In this document: piece by piece, positions 5,299 to 19,104 of the stretch | How the letters are laid out: the number at the start of each line of letters is the position of its first letter | Position numbering within the stretch: position 1 is the stretch's first letter | Source of the DNA: a virus | Strand: one strand, 5' to 3' | DNA length: 20,374 bases | Virus record (IMG/VR): IMGVR_UViG_3300039106_000069 | Location: 1-20,374 of that record | Notes under the pieces: model-generated | The model's database searches: none | Told to the model about the DNA's origin: nothing | The model's input: the letters and a program-made list of their open reading frames with translations, nothing else | Position numbers and translations under genes: made by a program

Positions 5299-7382
5299 TA
5301 AGCACCAATTTCATTGAAACTTACGCTAGAACGAGCAGCTACAAAGTTCAATGTAATGAAGTTGATAGAACGATTTGGCTTAATGAAGATATCAGCAACA
5401 AATTCGTTACGATCGATAACCTCACCAGTGTTATTTGTGTCATCACATTTAACGCGGAAGTCTGTAACACCACGACGACCTTGTACGTCACGCAAGAACG
5501 GTTCTACTAAGTTCTTGAATTGAGCACGAGTGAAGCTGTCGTTGAATTCAAACAATTGGTATTTAGCAGCAGTAGCAATTGCTTTCTCAAGAACGATAAA
5601 CAAGCGACGCACGTTAATACGATCGAATGCTGATGGTTTAGCTTGAAGAGTCTTGTCGCCAAACAATACAGTACCTTGTCCTGGGAAATTAACAACTGGG
5701 TTAACACCATTTTTATAAAGGTTATCACGTTCAGTTTTACCTGCGTTAACAGCTAATTTAACAACGTTTTTAATTTGACCACGGTTATAACCACCTGGAG
5801 AATACCAAGGATCATCTGTCAAATCAGTACGAGCACACAAACCAGCTACGTCACCGTTTAATGGAACCCATATATATTTGTCGTTGTAACGATCGTACTG
5901 GTATTTGTAACCAGAGTCAAGAACAGCGTATGAAGAACTTGGTAGTAAATCGCGGAATGCGTTTAGTTTATCTACTGCATCTGAACCAGTTCCGATAATA
6001 ACATCACCAGAAGTAGCATCTTGTGGAGAAACAAACGCAACGCAATCTTTACGAACTTCAGCAACGTTATTGATTACATATTCAGCAACAATATCAGAAG
6101 CTTTACCAACAGCGATCAATGAAATATCGTATAAATCGTTAGCAAACAAACCGAATCCTGCTGTTAATTGACCATCAGTTGCAGTCAAATCGTCTACACC
6201 ACCAGATAATGATACTGTAGAAGCAGATGATAATTGAACAAAAGTTGTTGCAGAGTTTCCACCCCAGTTTGTTCCTACTGTATTGTGATCCATCCACCAG
6301 ATATAGCGTGATGTTGAATTGATTACGTCTTTGTAGTAGTTATTAGTGCCATCTGATTTTTTGTTATCAGAAGCTTTAGATACAAAAGCAAATTTTTCTA
6401 AAATTGCACCGCTTGTACCAGTAAATTGGCCATCTTCATCGATAACAATGATATGCAATTCATCTTCTGCACCACCAGCTGTATCGGCAGCAGTAGATGT
6501 TCCTGGAGCTCCATCAAATTCAGCTTTATATGCCCAAGAAGTGTATGATAGACCATCAGCGATAGAAACTTTTAATGAGTTACCCAATGCGCCTGGAAAT
6601 TTAGCAGCCCATTCACCAACAACACCAGCACCATTGATATAGTTTGTAGTATAATCGTTAGTGTTATTAATTTTAATACCGCCAGTAGTAATAACAGCAG
6701 TAGCAGTAGCAGCTGGACCAGCATATGTTAATTCAGCACTACCGTTAGTTTCAGGAGTACCAACTGTTGTACCAGTAGGAGCACTAGAACCTGTAGTACC
6801 AGCAGTAGTAACTGTATACAATTTATTAGCTGAACGCAATTGAGCACCTAAAGTTACTGCAGTAGTTGCAACCCAAGCAGCTGGACCAATTGTGATTGTC
6901 GGAGGTGCTGTGTATCCAGAACCTGGAGTATTAATAATGATATTAGTAACAACACCTGATGTAAGAACTGCTGTGCCTGTAGCAGTAACGCCACCAGAAA
7001 TTTGTGGTGCTGAGAATGTAACTGTCGGAGCAGTAACGTGACCAGAACCACCAACTAAAGATGTAATTCCAGTAACTGTACCAGATTGAGTTGCCACAGC
7101 ATTTCTGTGATTAACTGTATCTACGCGAACTGTTAATAGGTTATTTGTATATGATAAGAAGTTCGCTGCAGTATAAAATGCCTGCGCGTTATCATTAGCT
7201 AATGGTGATGGTTTACCGAAACGTTGAACCAAAACATTCTCAGATGTGATTGTTACAGGGTCTAAAACTGGACCCCATGGGAATACACCTGCAAAAGCAC
7301 CAGCAGATGTTGAAACAGCAGGTACGATTGAAGAAAAATCTTTTTCTGTAACCAATACTCCTGGACTTAATTGAAATGCCAT
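5298..7382 (-). CDS. 18: Tail sheath protein gp18 with an inserted accessory domain
   Basis: A 694-aa contractile sheath subunit (T4 gp18 is 659 aa). The N-terminal sheath motif SPGVLVTEKDFSS (6-18), the middle part with KDCVAFVSP (445-453) and DSGYKYQYDRYNDKYIWVPL (489-508), GLCARTD, and the conserved C-terminal region (NFPGQGTVLFGDKTL 565-579, RINVRRLF 588-595, FIKPNRSINFITLNFVA 666-682) are all present. Residues about 101-233 are a Gly/Thr/Ala-rich insertion between sheath elements. It carries GSGHVTAPTVTF and GSGYTAPPTITIG beta repeats followed by a module beginning WVATTAVTLGA and containing TTAGTTGSSAPT. The same module type occurs in gp14. The start is supported by AAGGAG and by the upstream TATAAATG. 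It lies 82 bases downstream of gp17, as in T4. Confidence 0.96.
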   Translation of the reverse strand: MAFQLSPGVLVTEKDFSSIVPAVSTSAGAFAGVFPWGPVLDPVTITSENVLVQRFGKPSPLANDNAQAFYTAANFLSYTNNLLTVRVDTVNHRNAVATQSGTVTGITSLVGGSGHVTAPTVTFSAPQISGGVTATGTAVLTSGVVTNIIINTPGSGYTAPPTITIGPAAWVATTAVTLGAQLRSANKLYTVTTAGTTGSSAPTGTTVGTPETNGSAELTYAGPAATATAVITTGGIKINNTNDYTTNYINGAGVVGEWAAKFPGALGNSLKVSIADGLSYTSWAYKAEFDGAPGTSTAADTAGGAEDELHIIVIDEDGQFTGTSGAILEKFAFVSKASDNKKSDGTNNYYKDVINSTSRYIWWMDHNTVGTNWGGNSATTFVQLSSASTVSLSGGVDDLTATDGQLTAGFGLFANDLYDISLIAVGKASDIVAEYVINNVAEVRKDCVAFVSPQDATSGDVIIGTGSDAVDKLNAFRDLLPSSSYAVLDSGYKYQYDRYNDKYIWVPLNGDVAGLCARTDLTDDPWYSPGGYNRGQIKNVVKLAVNAGKTERDNLYKNGVNPVVNFPGQGTVLFGDKTLQAKPSAFDRINVRRLFIVLEKAIATAAKYQLFEFNDSFTRAQFKNLVEPFLRDVQGRRGVTDFRVKCDDTNNTGEVIDRNEFVADIFIKPNRSINFITLNFVAARSSVSFNEIGA
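6684..7082 (-). other. Accessory beta-domain insertion in gp18 (residues ~101-233)
   Basis: Two G-x-G-[HY]-x-x-[AP]-P-x-[VI]-T repeats (112-123 and 154-165) precede a W-x-A-T-T-A-x-x-x-G-A module (170-232) with an AGTTGS.APT core. Composition and motifs resemble an Ig-like or carbohydrate-binding-module-like display domain, predicted to be surface exposed. It is related to residues ~188-315 of gp14. Confidence 0.65.
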
Positions 7383-7401
7383 TGTAATTCTCCTTAATGC
7401 A

Positions 7402-7408
7402 TTTATAC
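7402..7408 (-). promoter_or_regulatory. Late-promoter-like TATAAAT(G) upstream of gp18
   Basis: The gp17-gp18 gap (82 bases) contains GTATAAATGC on the minus strand, 19 bases before the gp18 ATG and just upstream of its AAGGAG. The last base differs from TATAAATA, so it is a weaker match than the others. Confidence 0.4.
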
Positions 7409-7445
7409 TACAATTTTATGTTATTTGCTTGGAAGCACCACTTTT

Positions 7446-7460
7446 ACTAAATTATTTAGT
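7446..7460. repeat. Perfect AT-rich inverted repeat after gp17
   Basis: ACTAAAT and ATTTAGT form a 7-bp inverted repeat with a one-base centre, 4 bases beyond the gp17 stop. On the plus strand a run of seven T overlaps and follows its last base, but no gene on that strand would need a terminator. The single-base centre and A/T pairing make a stable RNA hairpin unlikely. Confidence 0.35.
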
Positions 7461-7464
7461 TTTT

Positions 7465-9126
7465 TTAGAAATTCAACAATTCTAATTGGTCAGGTGTTAA
7501 ATAATACTGCCCCTTCTCAATCGGTGCGCGGTTTTCTTCCCTAATTTGTTCTTGTATTTCTTCGTGCGTATCTCCATTATTATAAAAACCAAATGGAGTT
7601 AGTTCATCTTCAATTTGTCTAATGTGTGTTTCATACATTAGCTCTCTCATATTTACATTATTTAGATCTTTAAAATATGGGTTAGTTGTTAACCATCCAA
7701 ATAACACCATAGGCATAACTAAATCATCGTGATACCCATCATCTGCAGCATAAGAACCTTTAACCTCAATAAAAGTAGAGATTTCTGCAATTGTATCTAT
7801 ATCTGTAACTAAAAGTTTTTGTTCTTCAAGTAATGATTTAAATGTATGACATCCAATACGTTTAACCCTCTTATCTGTATTCACACCAAGTTGGGTTGTA
7901 CCACTACCAAAACCGCCAGAGACAAATTGTCCATTAGCAGTCCTACTTACAAATAAAATGTTTTCATATTCAAGTTCCGAATATAGAATAGTTGGAACTT
8001 GCTCGCTAGAGTTAATCTCAATTAAAACGTATGCTTGATTATAGTCATTAGCTACTTTATGTATAATGTTTGGGTATAATAAAGGACTAATCTTATTATT
8101 TCTATATTTAGCAACCTGTTTATATGGTGAAGTTGTTATATCCATAACAATAAATGCAGAATAATCCCCACCAACACCCTTTGCAGTATCGGCAACCATA
8201 ACATATGTATGACCTTTTATTGGCTCATCAATAACATCCAAACCATCTTTAGAATAAACATAATTAGAAGGGCTTAATCTACCAATAGTATCTGGACTAA
8301 TTAATGTTAGCGCAGAACCAAGGAATGCGCACATAACCTCTTGATTAAACTTAAGCTCACCAAGTAGCTCTTTTTGTTTATTAGCCCACACTTCATCTCG
8401 ATCTGGGTGTTCCCAATATTTAACTTCGACTGGTAAGAATCCATTTTGTTTCTCACCAGTACCAGACTCATTCCAGAATTTCCAGAAGTGATTATAACCC
8501 AGTGGGGTAGAAGTTAATACCACCTTTGTTGTCTTACCAGATGAAATTGTAGGGTAAGTTGACGTAAAGAAGTCTTCAGCAACGGTATTAGGGATAATTG
8601 CAGCCTCATCTACATATAAGAAGTTTACAGACTTACCACGAATACCTGCTCCAGAAGTTGCAGCTGTAAATACTTTAGAGCCATTTTCTAGTTCAATATC
8701 GCCTTTATTCCAAGTAACAACACCCTGTTGCATCCATTTTGGAATGTTTTCATACATTAATTGAAAACGAGATAGAATTTCTCTAGAAGCTGCAGCTTTA
8801 TTCGCTAAAATTGCCACTGTTTTATATTCATTAAATAATACATAATGTAAGATATAAGCAGCTACAGTTTGGGTTTTACCCATCTGACGAGGCTGCATAG
8901 AGATAATTCTATTATTATTGTGCATCGAAAGAATGAAGTTCTTTTGATATTCAAATAGTTCGAAGTTTATCAAACCACTATCAAGAGAAATAATTTTACA
9001 GTATTTTGTAATAAAGTAAATTGGATCTTTGGCACACTTGAGGAATTCTTCTACTTGGTCTTCAGTATATGGTATAGGAACACCAGCTGCTTTAAGCAGA
9101 GGGTTATTTAAATAGACTTGCGACAT
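7465..9126 (-). CDS. 17: Terminase large subunit gp17
   Basis: A 553-aa DNA packaging motor (T4 gp17 is 610 aa): an N-terminal ATPase drives DNA into the prohead through gp20 and a C-terminal nuclease cuts the concatemer. Visible ATPase elements are the Walker A motif QPRQMGKTQ (78-86), Walker B with catalytic Glu NFLYVDEAA (168-176) and the coupling motif LTSTP (204-208). Visible RNase-H-like nuclease acids are Asp313 (VADTAKG), Glu370 (LIEINSS) and Asp467/Asp468 (GYHDDLVM). The ATG follows the gp15 stop by three bases with no good Shine-Dalgarno, so translation probably depends on coupling. In T4 the small terminase gp16 sits between gp15 and gp17; here nothing does. Confidence 0.97.
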   Translation of the reverse strand: MSQVYLNNPLLKAAGVPIPYTEDQVEEFLKCAKDPIYFITKYCKIISLDSGLINFELFEYQKNFILSMHNNNRIISMQPRQMGKTQTVAAYILHYVLFNEYKTVAILANKAAASREILSRFQLMYENIPKWMQQGVVTWNKGDIELENGSKVFTAATSGAGIRGKSVNFLYVDEAAIIPNTVAEDFFTSTYPTISSGKTTKVVLTSTPLGYNHFWKFWNESGTGEKQNGFLPVEVKYWEHPDRDEVWANKQKELLGELKFNQEVMCAFLGSALTLISPDTIGRLSPSNYVYSKDGLDVIDEPIKGHTYVMVADTAKGVGGDYSAFIVMDITTSPYKQVAKYRNNKISPLLYPNIIHKVANDYNQAYVLIEINSSEQVPTILYSELEYENILFVSRTANGQFVSGGFGSGTTQLGVNTDKRVKRIGCHTFKSLLEEQKLLVTDIDTIAEISTFIEVKGSYAADDGYHDDLVMPMVLFGWLTTNPYFKDLNNVNMRELMYETHIRQIEDELTPFGFYNNGDTHEEIQEQIREENRAPIEKGQYYLTPDQLELLNF

Positions 9127-9129
9127 AAT

Positions 9130-9849
9130 TTAGAATGTAGATTCCCAGTTTTCTGTAACAGGATCTCCAGGAAGTGTACCAACTGCCTCATACTTTCTTC
9201 CTGGAATACTTACGTTAACATTAACATCTTTAATAATACCTTGATTAGTAACTGCGCCATATAAATTAGTTTTAAGCGTAAATGTCAAAGTGTGTGTAAC
9301 AAATCTTCTAGTTTGAAAGTCACCATCATAATCATCTTGAACAGAAACACTATTTAAGATGATAGGAATGTCTTGGATAACATTCATCTCTGGGACTGCA
9401 TTAATTGATAATGTATATTCAGGTGTGAATGTCGGTAATATTTGTTCAATAATCTGCATCGCATCTTCTTGAGTTTTAGTTAAAACATAAAGAGAGATTT
9501 CAATATTATATGGCACTGGAGAAAACATTGTTTTCTTTACATTACCTGAAGATTGATCACAGGTTAATTGGTTCATACGAGCAAGTTTTCTTGTTGCATC
9601 GTAATTATACCCAGTAATTTCAAACGACATTCTAGGTAAAGTTGTATATGTGGTATTGTTTAGTCCAGGATCTGAATCGATACGAACAATCCATTTTTCT
9701 TTTGGTGCATACGACAATGGGACTGCAATAGTTTGGGCTACTGCACCATCATTATCTTGTCTTGCAATTTTGATATCAGAAAACAAGCGTCCAAATGCAA
9801 CGATTGTTTTTCTGATACCTCCATGATAGAAGGTAGTATTATTTAACAT
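9130..9849 (-). CDS. 15: Tail terminator / sheath stabiliser gp15
   Basis: A 239-aa protein (T4 gp15 is 272 aa) that forms the hexameric ring ending the tail tube and sheath and docking to the neck. Family motifs are TFYHGGIRKTIVAFGRLFSD (6-25), VPLSYAPKEKW (43-53), LPRMSFEITGYNYD (71-84), PVPYNIEISLYVLTK (111-125), EQILPTFTPEYTL (135-147) and DIPIILNSVSVQDDYDGDFQ (160-179). Its ATG shares one base with the gp14 stop (TAATG), and TGGAGA in the gp14 end is a plausible ribosome binding site. The order 13-14-15 matches T4. No oddities in length or motifs. Confidence 0.95.
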   Translation of the reverse strand: MLNNTTFYHGGIRKTIVAFGRLFSDIKIARQDNDGAVAQTIAVPLSYAPKEKWIVRIDSDPGLNNTTYTTLPRMSFEITGYNYDATRKLARMNQLTCDQSSGNVKKTMFSPVPYNIEISLYVLTKTQEDAMQIIEQILPTFTPEYTLSINAVPEMNVIQDIPIILNSVSVQDDYDGDFQTRRFVTHTLTFTLKTNLYGAVTNQGIIKDVNVNVSIPGRKYEAVGTLPGDPVTENWESTF

Positions 9850-10898
9850 TATACAAAGTCTCCAAATGGATTATTCTCATTAAATACCACAGAAGCAGCT
9901 TCTTCTTTAAACTTGTTATTATCACCATAAGAAGTTTGGTTATCTATATTCTCAATAATAGAATATGCAGCTACAGAAGAACCTGAACCACCAGTGAAAG
10001 TGATTTTAGGTGGTGCTGTATATCCATTACCACCAGAAGTTAATGCCACACCCATCACCAGATTTGCTGTAGCACCAGTACCCAAGACCGCAGTACCTAT
10101 AGCTCTTGAGCCGATATACATTAAAGTTGCTGTGCCATTAGTTGTAGAACCTGAAGTATGTGTTGGTGCAGTAGAACCTGTAGTTCCTGCAACGGTAACT
10201 CTATATCTTCTTGCAGCATAATCAACTTCTGCTCCGACAGCTAATGCAGTAGTTGCAGTCCAGTTAGTTCCAAAAATAACAGTTGGCGCAGAAATATATC
10301 CAGCACCATTATTAGTCATTACAACCTCAGTGACAACACCGTTTTCAACGATGCTTGTATCATATGTTTTAAGAGTTTCGAAGTCATCAATATCCTTAAT
10401 TCCAGTAGTGATATGCTCTGAAGCATATTGGAATAATTCGACTTGGAGTTTATATACAAATAATTTGCCGATTTGATAAAACGGATCTTGGTATTGAACA
10501 AATTTTAATTCAAATAATGCATCTGTTAATGGGAAATAAAGTAAATCTCCCTCGCAAGGTCTAGTTGGAATAATTGTTGCACCGAATCTACCAATTAGTT
10601 GTTCCCAACGACGACGAGCAACTACAAGAGTTGCAGACTGTTCCATCATTAAACCAAACTTCTGTATAAATGCACCTTGACCATCAAAGCCATCTGTATT
10701 CTCTAAATACATTTCAATAGAATATGCAGACTTAAACTTGGATAAACGATCTTCACCAAGAATTTCGTCTTTGGCAACTAATGTTCTAGGAATATAATAG
10801 AAATTCTGACCATAGAATGATAGAGATTCTACAATTAAATCCTCGTGGAATAATTGTTCTGGTTTAGAACCATTAGATGTATATACTGAACGTGGCAT
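9849..10898 (-). CDS. 14: Neck protein gp14 with an inserted accessory domain
   Basis: A 349-aa neck protein, clearly longer than T4 gp14 (256 aa). With gp13 it completes the filled head and provides the tail docking site. The core is recognisable from SVYTSNG, EQLFHEDLIVESLSFYGQNF (15-34), YYIPRTLVAKDEILGED (34-50) and PTRPCEGDLLYFPLTDALFE (111-130), with the C-terminal ENNPFGDFV. The additional length is a Gly/Thr/Ala-rich insertion (about 188-315) with NGAGYISAPTVIFG and GNGYTAPPKITFTGG beta repeats flanking a WTATTALAVGA...VAGTTGSTAPT module, related to the insertion in gp18. It starts three bases after the gp13 stop with only a weak Shine-Dalgarno (TTAGG in the gp13 end) and overlaps gp15 by one base. 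Confidence 0.94.
   Translation of the reverse strand: MPRSVYTSNGSKPEQLFHEDLIVESLSFYGQNFYYIPRTLVAKDEILGEDRLSKFKSAYSIEMYLENTDGFDGQGAFIQKFGLMMEQSATLVVARRRWEQLIGRFGATIIPTRPCEGDLLYFPLTDALFELKFVQYQDPFYQIGKLFVYKLQVELFQYASEHITTGIKDIDDFETLKTYDTSIVENGVVTEVVMTNNGAGYISAPTVIFGTNWTATTALAVGAEVDYAARRYRVTVAGTTGSTAPTHTSGSTTNGTATLMYIGSRAIGTAVLGTGATANLVMGVALTSGGNGYTAPPKITFTGGSGSSVAAYSIIENIDNQTSYGDNNKFKEEAASVVFNENNPFGDFV
9954..10337 (-). other. Accessory beta-domain insertion in gp14 (residues ~188-315)
   Basis: The inserted region has the order GxGY repeat (198-209), W.ATTA module with AGTTGSTAPT core (213-272), then GxGY repeat (290-301). In gp18 both GxGY repeats precede the W.ATTA module, so the parts are shared but the order differs. 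Removing it leaves a protein near or somewhat below the T4 gp14 length. Confidence 0.65.
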
Positions 10899-10901
10899 TT
10901 T

Positions 10902-11864
10902 CTAGCCTAAAAAGAATTCGAGTGGTGCTGACTTATTCATCAATTCGTCTTCTAGATCTTTAATCTCAGTTTGAGCTTCGTCATACATACCTTGGAAGTC
11001 TATAGAAACACCACCTGGAAGAACCATACCTTGGAATTTCTTACCATTAATGCCCCATTGACGTTTAATCAAAGCAGTTGTATAGTGTTTCAACCATGGC
11101 TCATTCCAAACCTTAATAGCTTCTGATGGATCTAATGCTCTATAAGCTTCAACTAAAATAAAATCGCCAAGTCTTATTTGAGAATCCCAGTTTACATCAA
11201 GGTATAATTTACCAGCTAATCTATTGAATCTGTAAAGAGGATAACCATTTAACTCTAAACTTAACATAGCCAAGTGAGACATTACAGTTTTATAATAGAT
11301 AATTGATGTTGAAGTTAAATCATACAAATCATTTAATCGTAATTGGTATTGTAAATCAAATAGATTTTTTGATGACGATGCATTTGAAAATGGAATTACA
11401 CGTGTCACACCATAAACTAAATCTGGTATTTCTAGGTAGTGTTTATCGTAAGAGCCAAGAATTACTGGAGTCGACCCAAGAACAGCAGTTGTTCCATTTA
11501 CATTACTAGTAATAGTTTCTCCAGCAACGAAAGTTCCTGTGACTTTTTTAACTAAAAGAGTAGACCCTGAAGATTCTCTTCTAGATTCTCTACAAACAAG
11601 AGCAGTTGCGCCAGAAGTAGCACCTGTGACGGTTTCTTCAATTTGAAATGATGTGGCAGTAGATGTAGTTAAATGCAATTCAGAAGCACTAATTAAATGC
11701 TTCATATAAATTCTTTCTACACCATCCCAGTGATATTGTCTCCAATACTCAAGAGCTTCATCCATGCGATCTTCTACTTGTTGTTCATCAACGTTTACCT
11801 CAACTACAGGTTCACCTAATGAGCGTAAGCAATAATCGATAAGTTCTTGTCTAGTTGCAGCCAT
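10902..11864 (-). CDS. 13: Neck protein gp13
   Basis: A 320-aa protein (T4 gp13 is 309 aa) acting with gp14 in head completion and tail attachment. Recognisable elements are the N-terminal RQELIDYCLRSLGEPVVEVN (5-24), DRMDEALEYWRQYHWDG (32-48), HYLEIPDLVYGVTRV (142-156), FDLQYQLRLNDLYDLTS (169-185), HLAMLSLELNG (197-207) and the C-terminal PGGVSIDFQGMYDEA (283-297). Residues about 66-136 are a Thr/Gly-rich stretch with two related half-repeats, EETVTGATSGATALV and GETITSNVNGTTAVL, which look like a small inserted beta module unlike the helical remainder. AGGA upstream and an ATAAATA motif 17 bases before the ATG suggest that it opens the 13-14-15-17 unit. Confidence 0.94.
   Translation of the reverse strand: MAATRQELIDYCLRSLGEPVVEVNVDEQQVEDRMDEALEYWRQYHWDGVERIYMKHLISASELHLTTSTATSFQIEETVTGATSGATALVCRESRRESSGSTLLVKKVTGTFVAGETITSNVNGTTAVLGSTPVILGSYDKHYLEIPDLVYGVTRVIPFSNASSSKNLFDLQYQLRLNDLYDLTSTSIIYYKTVMSHLAMLSLELNGYPLYRFNRLAGKLYLDVNWDSQIRLGDFILVEAYRALDPSEAIKVWNEPWLKHYTTALIKRQWGINGKKFQGMVLPGGVSIDFQGMYDEAQTEIKDLEDELMNKSAPLEFFLG
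11457..11669 (-). other. Small beta module inserted in gp13 (residues ~66-136)
   Basis: The encoded segment contains two half-repeats of the form [EG]ET[VI]T....G.TA[VL], separated by a charged Arg/Glu/Ser linker. It differs sharply in composition from the surrounding gp13 sequence. I recall similar G-E-T-V-T-G-x-T-S-G-A-T-A repeats in structural proteins of aquatic T4-like phages. Confidence 0.5.
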
Positions 11865-11880: not shown

Positions 11881-12192
11881 TTATTTATTTAGTGTTGCAA
11901 TTTGGCTTCTTAATTCTTCAATTTGCGCTTGTTGTTCTTTAATAGCTTCAATTAATAGTGGAACTAAACGTTCATATCGAACAGTTAAGTAGTTTTCATC
12001 AATCGGTGCTGGAGCTACAACCTCAGGCATAATTGCTTGTACTTGCTGGGCAGATACCCCAACTTCACGTTTAACTTCATATCCATATGATTGCGCAAGT
12101 TCGTTAGCCTCGTAGTAGAAGCCATTCAATGTCTGCACTTTATCTAATGCGTTAGGGATATTACCTAAGTTAGTTTTAAAGCGATCATCTGA
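11881..12192 (-). other. Peptidase S74 intramolecular chaperone domain (C-terminal ~103 aa)
   Basis: The segment starts at the SDDRFKTN motif, whose Ser and Lys are the family's self-cleavage residues. It continues with ALDKVQTLNGFYYE, GVSAQQVQAIMPEVV, YLTVRYERLVPLLIEAIKEQ and a short coiled coil. The order and spacing are typical of complete S74 domains, and both key residues are present. Confidence 0.9.
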
Positions 12193-14922
12193 GTAGTATG
12201 CAGTTACGTTGTTAGTTGCACGGATTTCACCAGCTGTACCCGATGCTGCAGTACCAACTCCTAAACTATTGACTTGATAGTTGTTAGCTGTATTTAATGC
12301 ATTTGCTGTTGTAGCCGTAGTAGCAGTAGTAGCAGTAGTAGCCGTTGCCGCATTGCCTGAACAAGCAGCAGAAGTGCCTGCGCTGGTAATATAACCACTT
12401 GGGTTTGTTGCGTTATATGGAGTATAACCAAGAGCAGTAGTTACGTTACCACTTGTAATGCCTGTAATAAACCCAGCACCATTAGTTAGTTGGTTTGTAT
12501 TAGTTACGTTGGTTGCACCAGCTGCAATACCATCTAATTTAGCTGCATATGTGCTAGTCATATAACCGTTGACGGTAGATGTTGCAGCAGCCATTGAAAT
12601 TGCAGGTGTAGCTCCACCACTTGATACCACAGGAGCAGTACCAGTCACAGATGTAACACCACTAGTACCACTAGATGCTGCAGTAATACGCCCTTGAGCA
12701 TCAACTGTGATATTTGCAGTAGTATATGAACCTGCAGTAACAGCTGTGTTAGCTAAAGCAATAGTAACTGCAGAAGAACCATTAAATGATGTCCCTGATA
12801 AACCAGTGCCGATAGTCAATGCGTTAGGGTTTGCTGCTGTAATAGTAATTGCAGCAGAGCCATCAAAGTTTGTTCCGTTGATAGCGCGAGGAGTAGCTAA
12901 AGTAGTTGCTGTAGAAGCATTTCCAGTTAATGCTCCAACAAAACTTGTTGAAGTGACACTTGTCAATCCAGCTAAGGTAGTTGAAGAAGCACCAAGAGCA
13001 ATTGCAGTAGTACCAACAGTTACAGAACTATTAGTTAACTTTGCGTTAGCAATTGAACCAGCTAACATTGTATTGGTAACTGTTCCAGTGTCACCAGTTG
13101 TAATAACTGTGCCAGTTGTTGCTGGTAATGTAATAGTAGTTGTACCAGCAGCAGCACTGGCTTGAACTGTAGTTGACCCAGAAGTAGAACCGTTAAACAA
13201 TACACTAGTTACATCAGCCTGACCTAATTGTAAAGTGTCTTTAGTCCAAGTTGTAAAGTCTAAGGTTGATGCTGAAGGTTCTGTAGAAACTCCAGAAAAT
13301 AATTTCCAGTTATTTGCAGAAGCGTCTCGGACAATACCTGTATGTTGATATGTTCCATTATTAAAGTGTCCAACAACACCAATATCTGAAGAGTTTGCAC
13401 TATTACCAGTGGCAATATAAATCATCGTATCTTCTACTTCTACAGTAGCAGTATTATTGATAATTCTATCACCCTGAACTGTTAAGTCACCAGTAACAAC
13501 TAAATGATTTGCTGTAGTGATAGTACCACCACTTGCTCCAATGTTTAGTGTAGTTGCAGCACCACCGATGTTTAGAGTAGTTGCTGTTGTATTAAATAGA
13601 TCCATCGAAACTGAACCAGCTACAAGAGAAGTTGTAATGGTTGGGCTGGTGCCAAATACATTAGCGCCACTACCAGTTTCGTCAGTTAATAATGCAGCAA
13701 GGTTAGCTGATGATGGAGTTGTTAGGAATGTAGCAGCACCAGTGGCTAGACCAGAAACACCAGTAGAAATTGGTAGACCTGTTGCATTTGTTAGCGTACC
13801 ACCACTAGGTGTTCCTAATGCACCACCAGAATATAACAATGTAGCAGATGCATCTGGTAAAGTGAACGTCTTTTCTGATGTAGTTGGTCCAGTAAATTTA
13901 GCAAATCCATTACCAGTACCACCGTATGTAGAAGCAATAACTTGAGTTAACGCCACAGAGCCATCAAAGTTATTACCGTAAATTGCACGAGGAGTAGTTA
14001 AAGTTGCTGCAGATCCAGTTGTGCTTTGATTTAGGGTTGGGATATCTGCAACAGCAATCGCACGGAATGTTGGTGTACCAGCAGTACCATTTGGAGCAGC
14101 TAAGAAATAATTAGCAGTTTTAGATGCATATGGGTTTATAGTATCGCCATATGCTGTAGCAAGAGCAATAGTAACTGCAGAAGAACCATTAAATGATGTC
14201 CCTGATAAACCAGTACCAATGGTAAGAGCATTTGTTGTGTTTGCTGTAATAGTAATTGCAGCAGATCCATCAAAGTTTACGCCATTAATTGCTCTAGTAG
14301 TTGCAAGAGTAGTGGCAGTGGATGCATTTCCAGTTAATGCTCCAACAAAACTTGTAGAAGTTACTGAAGTAAGTCCTGCAAGAGTAGTACTAGAAGAACC
14401 TAAAGAGATCGATGTAGTACCAACTGTTACTGCGCTATTGGTAAGTTTGGCATTAGAAATACTACCAGCAAGCATTGTGTTTGTAACAGTGCCAGTATCA
14501 GTAGTATAAACACCATTAGTTACTGTACTTGCATTACCAGTTAATTCTCCAACAAAACTTGTAGAAGTTACTGAAGTAAGTCCTGCAAGAGTAGTACTAG
14601 AAGAACCTAAAGAGATCGATGTAGTACCAACTGTTACAGAACTATTAACAAGACCACTATTTGGTAACCCAGTACAGTTAGTTAATGTTCCAGAAGCTGG
14701 AGTTCCAAGAACAGGGGAAGATAAAGTTGGGCTAGTAAGAGTTTTATTTGTTAGCGTATCTGTAGTTGCGCGACCAACTAAAGTATCAGTAGAAGTCGGT
14801 AGAGTTAAAGTAGCTGAAATATTAACTATATTACTACCTGTCAGGTCAAGATTATCTCCTGAGGGAAGTTCTTTAATATTTAGATTTTCTGGGTCAACCA
14901 CTAATGGGAAACGATTCGTCAT
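11881..14922 (-). CDS. Large tail fibre with C-terminal peptidase S74 chaperone
   Basis: A 1013-aa fibre-type protein. The N-terminus (RFPLVVDPENLNIKELPSGD) is followed by long Thr/Ser/Gly-rich beta repeats, with VTVGTT.I.LG.SSTTLAGL appearing three times. The centre has a distinct domain around DLTVQGDRIINNTATVEVED. Then come the fibre motifs AAKLDGIAAGATNVTNTNQL and ALGYTPYNATNPSGYIT. The last ~103 residues, from SDDRFKTN at about Ser911, are a chaperone-of-endosialidase (S74) domain. In characterised members it folds the trimer and then cuts itself off in front of the Ser of this SD.R.K motif. A terminal coiled coil (LVPLLIEAIKEQQAQIEELR) matches the family. It is probably a receptor-binding fibre; the receptor is unknown. 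AAGGAT supports the start. DNA repeats within it indicate recent internal duplication. Confidence 0.9.
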   Translation of the reverse strand: MTNRFPLVVDPENLNIKELPSGDNLDLTGSNIVNISATLTLPTSTDTLVGRATTDTLTNKTLTSPTLSSPVLGTPASGTLTNCTGLPNSGLVNSSVTVGTTSISLGSSSTTLAGLTSVTSTSFVGELTGNASTVTNGVYTTDTGTVTNTMLAGSISNAKLTNSAVTVGTTSISLGSSSTTLAGLTSVTSTSFVGALTGNASTATTLATTRAINGVNFDGSAAITITANTTNALTIGTGLSGTSFNGSSAVTIALATAYGDTINPYASKTANYFLAAPNGTAGTPTFRAIAVADIPTLNQSTTGSAATLTTPRAIYGNNFDGSVALTQVIASTYGGTGNGFAKFTGPTTSEKTFTLPDASATLLYSGGALGTPSGGTLTNATGLPISTGVSGLATGAATFLTTPSSANLAALLTDETGSGANVFGTSPTITTSLVAGSVSMDLFNTTATTLNIGGAATTLNIGASGGTITTANHLVVTGDLTVQGDRIINNTATVEVEDTMIYIATGNSANSSDIGVVGHFNNGTYQHTGIVRDASANNWKLFSGVSTEPSASTLDFTTWTKDTLQLGQADVTSVLFNGSTSGSTTVQASAAAGTTTITLPATTGTVITTGDTGTVTNTMLAGSIANAKLTNSSVTVGTTAIALGASSTTLAGLTSVTSTSFVGALTGNASTATTLATPRAINGTNFDGSAAITITAANPNALTIGTGLSGTSFNGSSAVTIALANTAVTAGSYTTANITVDAQGRITAASSGTSGVTSVTGTAPVVSSGGATPAISMAAATSTVNGYMTSTYAAKLDGIAAGATNVTNTNQLTNGAGFITGITSGNVTTALGYTPYNATNPSGYITSAGTSAACSGNAATATTATTATTATTANALNTANNYQVNSLGVGTAASGTAGEIRATNNVTAYYSDDRFKTNLGNIPNALDKVQTLNGFYYEANELAQSYGYEVKREVGVSAQQVQAIMPEVVAPAPIDENYLTVRYERLVPLLIEAIKEQQAQIEELRSQIATLNK
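11882..11888 (-). promoter_or_regulatory. Late-promoter-like ATAAATA upstream of gp13
   Basis: The minus strand reads AAATAAATAAAAAC at the end of the 1013-aa fibre gene, whose TAA stop (11881-11883) it overlaps. It lies 17 bases before the gp13 ATG, leaving a very short leader with the AGGA ribosome binding site. Confidence 0.5.
12311..12346 (-). repeat. Four 9-bp tandem units in the 1013-aa fibre gene
   Basis: On the plus strand the units are GTAGCCGTA, GTAGCAGTA, GTAGCAGTA and GTAGCCGTT, encoding a Thr-Ala-Thr / Thr-Ala-Thr run just upstream of the S74 domain. The unit length is a multiple of three, so slippage would change length without breaking the frame. Confidence 0.75.
12757..12807 (-). 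repeat. 51-bp direct repeat, copy A
   Basis: This segment is identical base for base to 14163-14213. Both encode the peptide TGLSGTSFNGSSAVTIAL of the 1013-aa fibre. The copies lie 1406 bases apart. Confidence 0.9.
14163..14213 (-). repeat. 51-bp direct repeat, copy B
   Basis: This is the second identical copy of 12757-12807. Flanking sequence is diverged, so identity across 51 bases including synonymous positions suggests recent duplication or gene conversion. Confidence 0.9.
14340..14430 (-). repeat. 91-bp direct repeat, copy A
   Basis: This segment is identical to 14547-14637 at an offset of exactly 207 bases (69 codons). It encodes VTVGTTSISLG and the following TLAGLTSVTSTSFVG of the 1013-aa fibre. 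Similarity continues with a few mismatches for about 18 bases on the high-coordinate-independent side (14322-14339). Confidence 0.92.
14547..14637 (-). repeat. 91-bp direct repeat, copy B
   Basis: This is the second identical copy of 14340-14430. A third, diverged version of the same peptide is encoded near 12935-13025. Confidence 0.92.
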
Positions 14923-14931
14923 TTATTATCC

Positions 14932-15342
14932 TTAAATTGATACACTAACATTACCAGAACGAGCACCGACGGTAAAAGAACCGCCACTAATACTAATAGA
15001 GGTAAGTCCAATTCTAGTGGTGACAACTAGTGTGCCACCTCCTCCGCCACTTGCAGAACCCCAAGAAAGATTACCAGCACCATCTGTCTTAATAACTTGG
15101 TTCAAAGAACCATCAGTAGCAGGTAAAGTCCAAATAACATTTGCAGCAACATTCGCTGGCGATTTGAAACCTACGTAATTCGATGAGTCTGCATCAGCAA
15201 ATCTCAATTCACCACGACTGAGTAATGTCGCACTTGTATTTATTTGCGGTGATGTAAGAGTTTTATTTGTTAGTGTTTGAACTGCAGTTAGTGATACTAA
15301 ACTACTAGGTGCGACGATATCGGTAAGTAAAGTATTTGCCAT
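14932..15342 (-). CDS. Small fibre-type protein, 136 aa
   Basis: A 136-aa protein beginning MANTLLTDIVAPSSLVSL, with the QTLTNKTLTSP peptide (23-33) that recurs in the neighbouring fibres. A compact segment GELRFADADSSNYVGFKSP and VIWTLPATDGSLNQVIKTDG (about 44-88) is a common phage-tail motif. A short poly-Gly hinge (SGGGGG, ~97-102) precedes a final beta segment ending GNVSVSI. It begins two bases after the 462-aa gene stop (TAA T ATG); the nearest ribosome-binding-like sequence (GAGG) is in that gene's end. It could be an adaptor or a shortened fibre subunit between two full fibres. Function is inferred only from composition and context. An ATAAATACAAG match inside this gene (15237-15243) may be chance or an internal late start for the 1013-aa fibre. 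Confidence 0.75.
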   Translation of the reverse strand: MANTLLTDIVAPSSLVSLTAVQTLTNKTLTSPQINTSATLLSRGELRFADADSSNYVGFKSPANVAANVIWTLPATDGSLNQVIKTDGAGNLSWGSASGGGGGTLVVTTRIGLTSISISGGSFTVGARSGNVSVSI

Positions 15343-15343
15343 A

Positions 15344-16732
15344 TTATCGTGCGACCTCCGTAATTCTCATCCAAAGAGCATTAGCAGAGTTTGTAATAGT
15401 TATGTTATCGTCAGCACTATCTCTACGAACACCTACAGTAATAGTTTTTGCTGCTGTGCTTGAGTTTGTATATCTACCTATTAATGGAAATAAACTACCT
15501 GTTCTAGAACTGTTTGAAGTTACTGTAGCTTGTCTACCGTAGGTAATTTCAGTACCACCAACTTTGATACGAGAGAAATAACTATCTGATCCACCACCAG
15601 AACCTGTTAGCGCATCATAAGAAGCCACATGAACATGTATGATTAAATAACTTGAACTACTCACAGGAGTATAACTGTAAGTGATAAAATCTGTATCGGT
15701 ATTACTTGTAGCCACTGTTGTAGCATTAACAGTAAATTGAGTGTTATCCAACATAGTGTCTTTGATAACTTGCCCTGCATCCCATTGTGCAGCGCGAATT
15801 GTTCCTGCGGTAACTAAATTGCCACTGTTATCAAGAGAAGTGATAACAGCAGTATAACCACTATTGAGAACCTCAAGTGTTCCAGTGCTGTTGATACGGA
15901 ATGATTTAGAGCCATTGGTAACACCACTGGTAGTATTAGTTGCTTTGAAGAAGTCGAAATAACCAGTACCACCCTGAGTGTCTTTACCAGTGGTAGCTAA
16001 AGCGAAACCAGTTGTAGATCCTGGATTATATGTTATGCTAGTTGCACCAGTGATAGTTGGTGTTGTTAAAGTTTTATTTGTTAAGGTTTCTGTGCCAGTT
16101 AAAGTAACTAAACTAGAAACACTTCCACCAAGAGATACTGAAGTTCCATTAATAGTAATGGAACTGTTGGTTAGTGCTGAATTACCAATGTTTGATAGTG
16201 TATTTGAAGAACCACTAATGGTTTTATTTGTAAAAGTTGTAGTGCTAGAACCAGTAACATCACCTGTTCCACCATTTGCGCCAACTTGAGTATAAACTTC
16301 CCAAGTACCATCATAGACAAGCGTTACTGAAACACCTTCAATGTTTAATGAAAGGTTTTCAGCATTTAGTGCAATAGTAGAGGAATTACGACCAACTGTA
16401 AGTGGAGTCGCTAGAAAACTTGCACCATCAACAATAGTTACCCAGTCTCCAGTAGCTGGAGATGCAGGTAAAGTAATAGTAAATGTACCACCTGATGTAT
16501 CAGCGATATATGCCTGTCGCGATACTGCAGTGGTATTTGAAGTTACTTTAATATAAGAAAGGAGATTTGTATTAGTGGCTACTTTTACTACAGATTCGCT
16601 GCCTGTTACATCGCGTTTAAAGAATAGGTTTCCGTCGTATGTGTTTACAGCTAATTCACCGAGTGCAAGATCGGTAGTTGCTGGAACTTTGCCTTGAACG
16701 GCACTACGTTTTAATTTGACTGAGTTAGCCAT
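15344..16732 (-). CDS. Tail fibre-type protein, 462 aa
   Basis: Three parts are visible. The N-terminus SVKLKRSAVQGKVP...LALGELAVNTYDGNLFFKRD (4-41) is a widespread tail-fibre attachment module, also seen in shorter form in the 762-aa fibre. Residues about 60-150 form a domain with DTSGGTFTITLPASPATGDW (78-97), LTVGRNSSTI (111-120) and LVYDGTWEVY (138-147), common in phage tail proteins. After TNKT-type repeats, the C-terminal ~145 residues (318-462) include DFITYSYTPVSSSSYLII, SLFPLIGRYTNSST and LWMRITEVAR, a head domain I have seen at the ends of aquatic phage fibres, probably facing the host. AGG 9-11 bases upstream is a modest ribosome binding site. The 83-base leader holds a late-promoter-like motif and three palindromes. 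Confidence 0.82.
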   Translation of the reverse strand: MANSVKLKRSAVQGKVPATTDLALGELAVNTYDGNLFFKRDVTGSESVVKVATNTNLLSYIKVTSNTTAVSRQAYIADTSGGTFTITLPASPATGDWVTIVDGASFLATPLTVGRNSSTIALNAENLSLNIEGVSVTLVYDGTWEVYTQVGANGGTGDVTGSSTTTFTNKTISGSSNTLSNIGNSALTNSSITINGTSVSLGGSVSSLVTLTGTETLTNKTLTTPTITGATSITYNPGSTTGFALATTGKDTQGGTGYFDFFKATNTTSGVTNGSKSFRINSTGTLEVLNSGYTAVITSLDNSGNLVTAGTIRAAQWDAGQVIKDTMLDNTQFTVNATTVATSNTDTDFITYSYTPVSSSSYLIIHVHVASYDALTGSGGGSDSYFSRIKVGGTEITYGRQATVTSNSSRTGSLFPLIGRYTNSSTAAKTITVGVRRDSADDNITITNSANALWMRITEVAR

Positions 16733-16741
16733 AATAACCTA

Positions 16742-16753
16742 TTCTATATAGAA
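16742..16753. repeat. 12-bp perfect palindrome TTCTATATAGAA
   Basis: A self-complementary sequence 10 bases before the 462-aa fibre start, adjacent to its AGG ribosome binding site. It is the third and weakest of three inverted repeats in this 83-base gap. Confidence 0.6.
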
Positions 16754-16764
16754 AATAATATCAT

Positions 16765-16780
16765 CTCAGTATATACTGAG
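16765..16780. repeat. 16-bp perfect palindrome CTCAGTATATACTGAG
   Basis: A perfectly self-complementary 16-mer between two fibre genes. As RNA it would fold to a 6-bp stem (CUCAGU/ACUGAG) with an AUAU loop. As DNA it looks like an operator or recombination-type symmetric site. It is separated by one base from the next hairpin. Confidence 0.8.
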
Positions 16781-16781
16781 T

Positions 16782-16800
16782 GGTGGGAATTTCACCCACC
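16782..16800 (-). ncRNA. Leader hairpin GGUGGG/CCCACC before the 462-aa fibre
   Basis: In minus-strand RNA a perfect 6-bp G/C-rich stem encloses the 7-base loop UGAAAUU. It begins three bases after an ATAAATA motif, the same spacing as the gp19 leader hairpin. No U-tract follows on the minus strand, so it does not look like a simple intrinsic terminator of the 762-aa fibre gene. Confidence 0.65.
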
Positions 16801-16803
16801 TTG

Positions 16804-16810
16804 TATTTAT
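16804..16810 (-). promoter_or_regulatory. Late-promoter-like ATAAATA upstream of the 462-aa fibre
   Basis: GATAAATACAAGG on the minus strand, six bases after the 762-aa fibre stop and 71 bases before the 462-aa fibre ATG. It matches NATAAATA. Confidence 0.5.
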
Positions 16811-16815
16811 CTCAA

Positions 16816-19104
16816 TTAATATGTACCACCATCGATGTTGAAACCATCGAGAGTAGAAGTTGCAGCACCTGCACCAGTAATATTAGTACCAATATACATT
16901 GCTTTAGCAACAGATAAACCACCTGATAATACTACCGCAGCAGTACCAACAGCAGAAGCGTCTGTACTATTTGTAAATGTAACTAAACCAGAACCAGCGA
17001 TAGTAGTACCACTAAAGCTTGATGAAGTGATTGTCTTATTACTTAATGCCTCTGTACCAGCTAATGTAGCAAGAGTACCTGTTGTTGGTAAAGTTACATT
17101 AGTAGAGCCAGTTTGTGTTAGCGTTAAAGCATAAGCACCAGAAGTAGTTAAGTTACCACCAAGAGTGATAGTTTTACCAGTATTAGCAACACCAGTACCA
17201 CCATATTGACCTGCAACGACACCAGCATTCCAAGTACCAGTAGTAACTGTACCAAGAGTAGTGATAGTGCTTTGACCAACATAATTAACATCAATATCAA
17301 TAGAGTCTGAAGAAACAGAAATTCTACCAGTAGTACCTACTGCATCGAAAGTAGTTCCAGATAAAGTTAAACCATTACCAGCTGTATAAGCACCAGATCC
17401 TGCGAATTGTGTCCAAGATTGATAGTTACCAGTTTCACCAAAGTTTACTAGGTAGTGATTAGTTTGAACCCAACCAGTAGAAGCATACTGAGTACCTTCC
17501 ATAATGTATACAGAAGTACCAACCAATTCTTGGTATGTATCAGCATCTACAGAGCGAGTTAATGTATAAGTTGTGCCATTATCAGCATAGTCATAGATAC
17601 CATTTTGAGATTGGGTACTTTGACCTTTTAATAATATACGATATCCGCTATGAACAGAAGTAAGAGTTGCATGTCCGTCAATAGAAACAGTATTTGTATT
17701 ACCAGTTAATGGAACATTAGAAACTGCTAATAAGTTTGCAGCAGCTTTCCAATCTAAACCAGTAACAGCATTATCAACATAAGCTTTATTTGCTGCATCT
17801 GTAGAACTAACTGGAGTAGCTACACCAGAAATGATAGAATTGCCAACATCAACAACACCAGTGCCATTTGGACTAATAACAATATCACCGTTAGTGTTTG
17901 TAGAACTAATTGTATTACCATTAATATTGATATTGTCAACTGTTAGTTCGGTTAACCCAGCTAAACTAGTAGAAGTTGAACCAAGAGCAACAGTAGTAGA
18001 TCCAAAAGTTACAGAAGTGTTAACTAAAGCTGAATTTGGAATGTTGGTGAATGTATTGCTTGAACCAGACATTGTCTTGCCAGTAAGAGTTTCTGTACCT
18101 GCAAGAGTTGCAAGAGTACCAGTAACTGGTAATGTCAAGGTTGTATTAGCAGTAGCAGTAAATGTTTGACTATAAGCACCAACTGTAGCAAGACTAGATC
18201 CGTCAGCCAGTGTTAAAGTAGCTGATGTAGTTGGTGCAGTAATTGTTACTTTGTTGATGCTAGTAGCAGTTGCAACACCCAAGGTAGGAGTTGTCAATAC
18301 TGGACTTGTCAAAGTTTTATTTGTTAAAGTTTGAGTGCCAGTTAATGTTGTAACAGTAGAATCGATATCGAATGTAACAGCATTATTAGTTACGCTTGAT
18401 GTGATACCAGTACCGCCAGTAAATGTCAAGGTATCAGTTAAAAGCGCAACTGCATCAGTTCCTGTATCGCCAGCAATGTTTAAACTAGAAGCAACAGAAG
18501 CTGTAGTAGCTGCAGTGATTTGACCTTGCGCATTAATAGTTAAAACAGGGATAGCAGAAGCTGAACCATAAGAACCAGCTGTTACTGCAGTGTTAGAGAT
18601 AGAAATTGTAGAAGTATTACCAACATCACTATTAGAAATAGTAATACCAGTACCACCAGTAACTGCACCACCTACTGTGTCGTAAATATATTCAGCAAGA
18701 GATGTTGCATTATCCCCAATATATGGGTTGGTGATAATAGTTTTACCAGAGCCGTTTGGAGTGATTGATAAATCACCGTTGGTATTTGTAGTGCTTAAAG
18801 TGCTACCGTTTAACTGTAGATTATCAACATAGAAGTCGTCAATCTTTTTGCTTGAGTCAACAATAATAGCTGAAGAAGCAGTTAATGTTCCTGGAGTATG
18901 ATCTAATTTATCAGTAAAGTAAGTACCACCAATAACTAAATGGTTGGCAGCATTACCTGACGTTTCTGATCCAATACCAATGTAAAGTCTCTCACCACCA
19001 TTACTGCCGTTATCAGTGAGAGCTGAATAAGCTAATTCGCCAGCAGCAAGAGTGCTAGGATTACCACTAACAGATGAACGTTTTATTCTAATTATTGATG
19101 CCAT
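16816..19104 (-). CDS. Tail fibre-type protein, 762 aa
   Basis: The N-terminus IIRIKRSSVSGNPSTLAAGELAYS (4-27) is a fibre attachment module. A 28-residue repeat with STTNTNGDLSITPNGSG (104-120) recurs at 400-416 as STNTNGDIVISPNGTG. The Thr/Ser/Gly-rich shaft carries TLTNKTLTSP-type peptides (259, 339, 686). Residues about 430-590 (TDAANKAYVDNAVTGLDWKA, SQNGIYDY, TRSVDADTYQELVG, GWVQTNHY, QSWTQFAGSGAYTAGNGLTL) form a domain frequent in aquatic phage fibres. The protein ends TLDGFNIDGGTY, a C-terminal peptide shared with the 84-aa protein encoded just upstream. AAGGAAAAT supports the start, 15 bases after that gene's stop. Likely a structural fibre or whisker; the receptor and exact position on the baseplate are unknown. 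Confidence 0.85.
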   Translation of the reverse strand: MASIIRIKRSSVSGNPSTLAAGELAYSALTDNGSNGGERLYIGIGSETSGNAANHLVIGGTYFTDKLDHTPGTLTASSAIIVDSSKKIDDFYVDNLQLNGSTLSTTNTNGDLSITPNGSGKTIITNPYIGDNATSLAEYIYDTVGGAVTGGTGITISNSDVGNTSTISISNTAVTAGSYGSASAIPVLTINAQGQITAATTASVASSLNIAGDTGTDAVALLTDTLTFTGGTGITSSVTNNAVTFDIDSTVTTLTGTQTLTNKTLTSPVLTTPTLGVATATSINKVTITAPTTSATLTLADGSSLATVGAYSQTFTATANTTLTLPVTGTLATLAGTETLTGKTMSGSSNTFTNIPNSALVNTSVTFGSTTVALGSTSTSLAGLTELTVDNININGNTISSTNTNGDIVISPNGTGVVDVGNSIISGVATPVSSTDAANKAYVDNAVTGLDWKAAANLLAVSNVPLTGNTNTVSIDGHATLTSVHSGYRILLKGQSTQSQNGIYDYADNGTTYTLTRSVDADTYQELVGTSVYIMEGTQYASTGWVQTNHYLVNFGETGNYQSWTQFAGSGAYTAGNGLTLSGTTFDAVGTTGRISVSSDSIDIDVNYVGQSTITTLGTVTTGTWNAGVVAGQYGGTGVANTGKTITLGGNLTTSGAYALTLTQTGSTNVTLPTTGTLATLAGTEALSNKTITSSSFSGTTIAGSGLVTFTNSTDASAVGTAAVVLSGGLSVAKAMYIGTNITGAGAATSTLDGFNIDGGTY

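Follow-up and report, generated by a model that had tools for sequence, protein, structure and literature searches.

A repeat domain and a nested W module shared by the sheath protein gp18 and the neck protein gp14 of a T4-like phage

The tail sheath protein gp18 of phage T4 has been described as a series of domains inserted one into another (PMC3004832). Inserted into its domain II is domain I (residues 98-188), whose six strands form a barrel accompanied by a helix; domain I protrudes from the tail without making sheath-sheath contacts, and it binds the baseplate and the retracted long tail fibres; mutations in this domain block fibre retraction (PMC3004832). Extra domains, often Ig-like, have been found on other phage sheaths, and a role in adhesion or stability has been proposed for them (PMC9230969). 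At the T4 neck, residues 178-256 of gp14 form a flexible arm, which has no fixed structure until the tail attaches and from then on touches gp15 (PMC12270204). An external beta-sandwich on the stopper of phage 812, the same component of the neck ring, is absent in some relatives (PMC12886913). Extra domains of phage tails are known, and they have mostly been described singly, protein by protein. Here, we compare these systems with a fragment in which two neighbouring tail components, and in related phages also baseplate and head-closure proteins, draw on one small set of modules. Our search of the open literature found no paper in which these modules are named for a sheath or neck protein.

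The window, that is, the whole stretch of DNA analysed, is a 20,374-base IMG/VR fragment of a T4-like phage, and its minus strand encodes gp13, gp14, gp15, gp17, gp18, gp19, gp20 and the prohead protease. Several fibre-like genes also lie in the window. An Rfam search of the window gave no match, and NCBIfam returned nothing useful. The gene calls and coordinates given for gp18 and gp14 in an earlier note on this DNA are correct (Table 1). gp18 belongs to the tail sheath family (Pfam 63.5 bits against a cut-off of 31.4; Phage_sheath_1 2.9e-17, Phage_sheath_1C 7.6e-17, Gp18_domIII_N 3.3e-8; PHROG 23 tail sheath 2.4e-123) and has the fold of T4 gp18M (3foa, Z 32.2). gp14 is a T4_neck-protein in Pfam (1.5e-30; 106.9 bits against a cut-off of 25) with a stopper fold that matches the T4 gp14 structure 9lu6 at Z 12.0 over 130 residues. 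Judged by the sheath protein, the nearest cultured relatives are the Stenotrophomonas phage DLP_6, the Pelagibacter phages HTVC008M and Mosig, the Synechococcus phage BUCT-ZZ01 and the Methylophilales phage Melnitz, with 52-59% identity over 70-77% of the protein.

Table 1 Positions of gp18, gp14 and the parts of their inserts in the window
Feature	Residues	Position in window	Strand	Basis
gp18, tail sheath protein	694 aa	5298..7382	-	Pfam, PHROG
gp18 beta repeat 1	100-141	6960..7085	-	AF2 strands, alignment to W-less relatives
gp18 beta repeat 2, first part	142-167	6882..6959	-	AF2, W-less relatives
gp18 W module, CBM5/12-like by homology	168-222	6717..6881	-	Shuffles, HMMs
gp18 beta repeat 2, last strand, ATATAVITTGGIK	223-235	6678..6716	-	AF2, W-less relatives
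gp14, neck / head-closure protein	349 aa	9849..10898	-	Pfam, structure
gp14 beta repeat 1, first part	184-210	10269..10349	-	AF2, W-less relatives
gp14 W module, CBM5/12-like	211-263	10110..10268	-	Shuffles, PDB matches, AF2, fold
gp14 beta repeat 1, last strand, and beta repeat 2	264-318	9945..10109	-	AF2, W-less relatives

The earlier note had drawn attention to building blocks common to gp18 and gp14, in segments that the present analysis places at residues ~100-235 and ~184-318, respectively. The motifs are present (GSGHVTAPTVTF, GSGYTAPPTITI and WVATTA..AGTTGSSAPT in gp18; GAGYISAPTVIF, WTATTA..AGTTGSTAPT and GNGYTAPPKITF in gp14), and they belong to two homologous parts that the proteins have in common: a six-stranded repeat domain and a module of about 53 residues, here called the W module. 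BLASTP with filters off aligns gp18 137-231 collinearly with gp14 181-272 (88 bits, E 3e-23). Glycine, threonine, alanine and serine are abundant in both inserts, and the score drops once SEG and composition correction are applied (best piece E 1.5e-5), as if the likeness were one of Gly/Thr/Ala composition alone between segments of separate origin. We give this reading practically no credence, since shuffling and HMM-HMM comparison contradict it. Over 3000 shuffles, z reaches 16.6 for insert against insert, 16.1 for the W module alone and 10.4 for the repeats alone, and when the gp18 insert was shuffled 2000 times with its composition kept, the best W score was 7.0 bits, compared to 49.8 bits for the real insert. 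Models built so as to avoid circularity point the same way: a W-module HMM made from gp14 modules only scores the window's gp18 at E 3e-14 and gives no match to the window's own tail fibres, which are rich in Gly, Thr and Ala, while HMMs of the repeats of W-less relatives, with the window left out, cross from gp18 relatives to the window's gp14 (E 4.9e-10) and from gp14 relatives to its gp18 (E 8.6e-10). When the repeat domains of W-less gp18s and gp14s were aligned HMM to HMM, as the earlier note had suggested for the two segments, hhalign returned a probability of 99.5 (E 1.1e-21, 84 columns), and the order of strands is equal in both.

A common module with the same AGTTGS[ST]APT core and collinear flanks might also have arisen by gene conversion, in which the gp14 gene would recently have served as template for the W module of gp18 within this one genome. 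We consider this very improbable. The two modules have 28 identical residues with 14 identical codons, against 12.8 expected by chance, and the gp18 module scores up to 154 with modules in other virion proteins of other phages, compared to 134 with its own gp14. With codons no more alike than chance predicts, and with modules of other virion proteins standing closer to it than that of its own gp14, the gp18 module is not a recent copy.

In both proteins, AF2 predicts the repeat domain as two GxGY beta repeats of three strands each. Together with the alignment to W-less relatives, these strands define where the W module is nested. Repeat 1 of gp18 is complete (strands 100-110, 120-123 and 135-141; pLDDT about 84-91), and repeat 2 begins with strands 144-152 and 162-165, its last strand (ATATAVITTGGIKI; 226-234) following only after the W module. 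In gp14, strands 187-199 and 206-209 (pLDDT >90 from residue 191) precede the W module, strand 267-272 then completes repeat 1, and repeat 2 follows uninterrupted (281-288, 298-302 and 307-317). The W module therefore lies between strands 5 and 6 in gp18 and between strands 2 and 3 in gp14, interrupting repeat 2 in the former and repeat 1 in the latter, and the two inserts form one collinear composite. Since the domain consists of two three-strand repeats, the 2/3 and 5/6 loops are equivalent. The differing order of blocks noticed earlier is thus real in that the W module occupies different repeats, but it reflects the same nested design in equivalent loops and not a reshuffling of blocks; likewise, what had been taken for a single display element resolves into two distinct ones, a repeat domain, which both proteins carry as standard in this clade, and a W module nested inside it. 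At residues 171-220, the W module of gp18 is modelled with a pLDDT of only about 40, since it is present in few of the aligned sheaths. For gp14, where the question was whether the insert folds as a domain of its own, residues 190-318 are predicted with high confidence (pLDDT about 88-94) and flanked by low-confidence linkers (175-180 and 322-327, pLDDT <50), which suggests a tethered domain.

The site of the gp18 insert is not an arbitrary one. Aligned with T4, residue 100 of the window's gp18 corresponds to T4 residue 97 and residue 236 to T4 residue 193, so that the repeat domain lies between T4 residues 97 and ~190 and fills the slot of domain I (PMC3004832), which it replaces or corresponds to. 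It resembles domain I in its position in the sheath chain, its six beta strands, its insertion into domain II and its expected protrusion from the tail. The T4 domain differs in containing an alpha helix and in lacking a W module, and relatives here have two or more repeats, or none; the sequences show no significant similarity. Homology looked plausible by eye (GxI..I..PGSNY..GD.I.V), but hhalign gave probabilities against domain I of 0 for the gp18 repeats and 1.2 for the gp14 repeats, and an HMM search gave 2.8 bits. We therefore do not name the repeat domain domain I. Searched by sequence, it matched no solved structure and no Pfam family. In gp14, the insert falls in the C-terminal arm, which matches T4 gp14 178-256 in the alignment.

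The fold of the inner module was more readily placed. The earlier note had considered an Ig-like insert; no Ig family scored above chance in Pfam, the fold-match lists were occupied by core domains, and the W module instead resembles the carbohydrate-binding family CBM5/12. The nearest solved match of the gp14 copy is the tailspike of cyanophage Pam1 (7EEA; Z 10.6, rmsd 0.9 A over 58 residues, 47% identity), which is also its sequence match in the PDB (E 1.7e-7), followed by a Carin 1 tail assembly (Z 8.2) and a Vibrio chitin deacetylase (Z 7.0). CBM regions of deacetylases and chitinases align at Z 5.4-7.0 (1.6-2.6 A, 44-48 residues), values that, being below 8, would be weak on their own. 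Pfam CBM_5_12 is matched by 14 of the 28 relatives tested (best 5e-6), and both copies in the window fall below the gathering cut-off of PF02839 (gp14 12.0 bits against 26.2; no match for the gp18 module). Taken together, these results support a CBM5/12-like fold, computed for the gp14 copy and expected for the gp18 copy from homology. Unlike the CBM5/12 modules of chitinases and chitin deacetylases, the W module sits in virion structural proteins. It also seems to lack their ligand-region aromatic: between the GTTGS core and NG, no aromatic is conserved among 119 W modules (<6% at each position). We take this stretch to be the presumable ligand-aromatic region of CBM5/12, the computed residue match to chitinase A1 covering the first 24 positions. 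The His of the PTH motif is kept in 110 of the 119 modules and is Gly in the window's gp18. Judging by these residues, sugar binding may have been lost or may be of a different kind, and carbohydrate binding by the W module is our guess from the likeness in fold. The receptor-binding region of the Pam1 tailspike, from a phage of Pseudanabaena, has been proposed to recognise host polysaccharide (PMC9382816); there, the W-like portion belongs to a receptor-binding tailspike and not to a sheath or neck protein.

A survey of related phages, also suggested in the earlier note, found each insert present in some and missing in others. Relatives were the best 80 of a pattern-based scan per gene, and the counts below refer to these sets. 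Among 88 non-redundant gp18 inserts, 6 contain the W module, and they fall in three separate parts of the core tree; the sheaths nearest to the window's gp18 (L003, L004 and L083) are W-less, and three sheaths (L097, L114 and L133) miss the whole repeat domain. About half of 85 gp14s carry the W module, and 7 are without insert, as in L082, L074, L080 and L065. On core-gene trees, with SH-aLRT support only and parsimony counts that are blind to gain versus loss, the W state changes at least three times in gp18 and at least four times (any W) in gp14. The repeat domain occurs in both proteins in 46 of 57 non-redundant contigs with both genes, and the W module in both in the window only (1 of 57). 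The repeat domain is hence usual in gp18 and gp14 of related phages, but removable, and the mobility and independent capture put forward earlier are borne out by the presence and absence in relatives together with the separate turnover of the W module.

These distributions bear on what the domains might do. The repeat domains could dock retracted tail fibres or whiskers, the presence of the same domain in both places then reflecting a single partner that runs along the tail: domain I of T4, in the same slot, binds retracted long fibres, and its mutants block retraction (PMC3004832), the repeat domain is found jointly in gp14 and gp18 in the 46 of 57 contigs, and fibre-like genes are at hand in the window. 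We nevertheless regard docking as unlikely, given that either protein can be without the domain while the other keeps it (L097, L114 and L133; L082, L074, L065 and L080), that the same domains occur in baseplate and head-closure proteins, and that T4 domain I is not recognisably homologous. Equally hard to favour is a role in stabilisation, in which the domains would hold adjacent subunits together and make sheath and neck more rigid, in the manner of the external domains and decoration proteins of phage 812. The neck decoration proteins of that phage are thought to reinforce the neck (PMC12886913), and the disc may be cemented by additional domains of the sheath (PMC9230969); against this stand the patchy presence among close relatives with nearly unchanged cores, the absence of sheath-sheath contacts of T4 domain I (PMC3004832) and the low-confidence linkers around the gp14 insert. 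The external beta-sandwich of the phage 812 stopper is comparable in position: it is an additional beta domain, borne by the same component of the neck ring and likewise absent in some relatives, and the accessible part of its description includes no W module (PMC12886913).

The explanation that we prefer, and hold to be reasonably likely, is that gp18 and gp14 carry two mobile, outward-facing modules that have been gained or lost separately and act as weak adhesins without a role in assembly. The outer module is the six-stranded GxGY repeat domain, seated in the domain I slot of gp18 and in the C-terminal arm of gp14, and the inner W module is plugged into the loop that follows strand two of a repeat, which is repeat 2 in gp18 and repeat 1 in gp14. 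gp18 and gp14 would have gained or lost the W module on separate occasions, with the copies found in numerous virion proteins as the pool. Going by the T4 positions, both modules should face outwards, so that each sheath subunit would display one copy and the neck six, and neither would take part in assembly. Their function is probably weak, many-copy adhesion to sugars on cells or particles, which we favour because the modules are patchily present, the linkers suggest tethering, the nearest solved relative of the W module is a tailspike and its fold is CBM-like. As with the extra domains of other phage sheaths (PMC9230969), surface domains are added onto a conserved sheath core; unlike those often Ig-like domains, the unit here is a GxGY repeat, has a further domain nested in it and is shared with the neck. 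This arrangement suggests that adhesion to cells or particles could belong to the whole tail, beyond the fibres alone.

The earlier note had singled out the use of one module by both neck and sheath, but the sharing is not confined to these two. W and repeat modules also occur in baseplate-wedge proteins (PHROG 438), where a single protein can hold three to five W copies, in head-closure Hc3, and in other tail and fibre-like proteins; longer related genomes have them in further ORFs, and all 7 related records examined carry both module kinds, most of them in several ORFs. A third module of about 45 residues (G.YTI..G.TDFT.IGA..N..G..F.ATG.G.GTGTA), without a match in Pfam, PHROG or the PDB, is nested in the PTH loop of the W module in two sheaths (L040 and L050) and in a baseplate-like protein (L190). 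We tentatively raise the idea, on balance a doubtful one, that modules from one circulating pool nest recursively outwards, from core to repeat to W to third module, with equivalent loops as acceptor sites. Because T4 gp18 is already built domain in domain (PMC3004832), such nesting would continue the same principle outwards. If this idea were correct, one pool would supply sheath, neck, baseplate and fibres, and the whole tail surface would evolve as one exchangeable coat capturing sugars or retracted fibres. The use of equivalent loops and the mutual nesting of modules amount to a concrete, testable rule for diversifying a phage surface without disturbing assembly, with the T4 domain I slot, the 2/3 and 5/6 strand loops and the PTH loop of the W module as the natural acceptor loops. 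The 5/6 loop is used in gp14 as well: in a second group of gp14s (L061, L140, L142, L144-147 and L081), assigned by reading sequences, the W module sits in repeat 2, like in gp18.

Among the retrieved loci, we counted 193 copies of a further module, of ~45 residues, across 99 ORFs, and it is therefore widespread in virus contigs. This module, which can be nested in the W module (a CBM5/12-like domain of ~53 residues), had no match in the databases searched (Pfam, PHROG, and PDB). In the tail sheath protein gp18 of two related loci (L040 and L050), it sits within the PTH loop of the W module, a position it likewise occupies in a baseplate-wedge-like ORF of another (L190, ORF at 1606). By the neck protein gp14, the nearest relative of the window is L083 (core identity 92%); its gp18 is devoid of the W module, and the sheath core holds the ~45-residue module, a third module type, instead. 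The gp18 genes of L083 and L040 are each broken by one in-frame stop.

GxGY repeats, the building blocks of the repeat domain common to gp18 and gp14, also occur in other phages. The sheath of Acidovorax phage ACP17 carries them outside the domain I slot, whereas in the window gp18 the repeat domain fills this slot. The 657-residue gp14 of Synechococcus phage S-CAM9 has a C-terminal arm of about 480 residues, composed for the most part of GxGY-type repeats.

An insert of a third repeat type lies within gp13. It is removable, being absent from L067, L043, and L082, and several unrelated structural proteins in PHROG match it. Large Gly/Thr/Ala-rich fibre-like proteins are encoded in a row in the window, with the TLTNKTLTSP motif repeated many times; one of them has a Peptidase_S74 chaperone domain at its end.

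Coordinates of the features in the window and in related loci
Feature	Coordinates	Residues	Repeat type or motifs
gp13 insert	window 11445-11687	gp13 ~60-140	third kind; ETVTGATSGATA..VTGTFVAGETIT
Fibre-like proteins	window 11881-19104		TLTNKTLTSP
gp18, interrupted	L083:9478-11598		
gp18, interrupted	L040:260-2500		
ACP17 gp18	L228:3001-4965	~232-310	GxGY
S-CAM9 gp14	L226:2959-4932		GxGY-type
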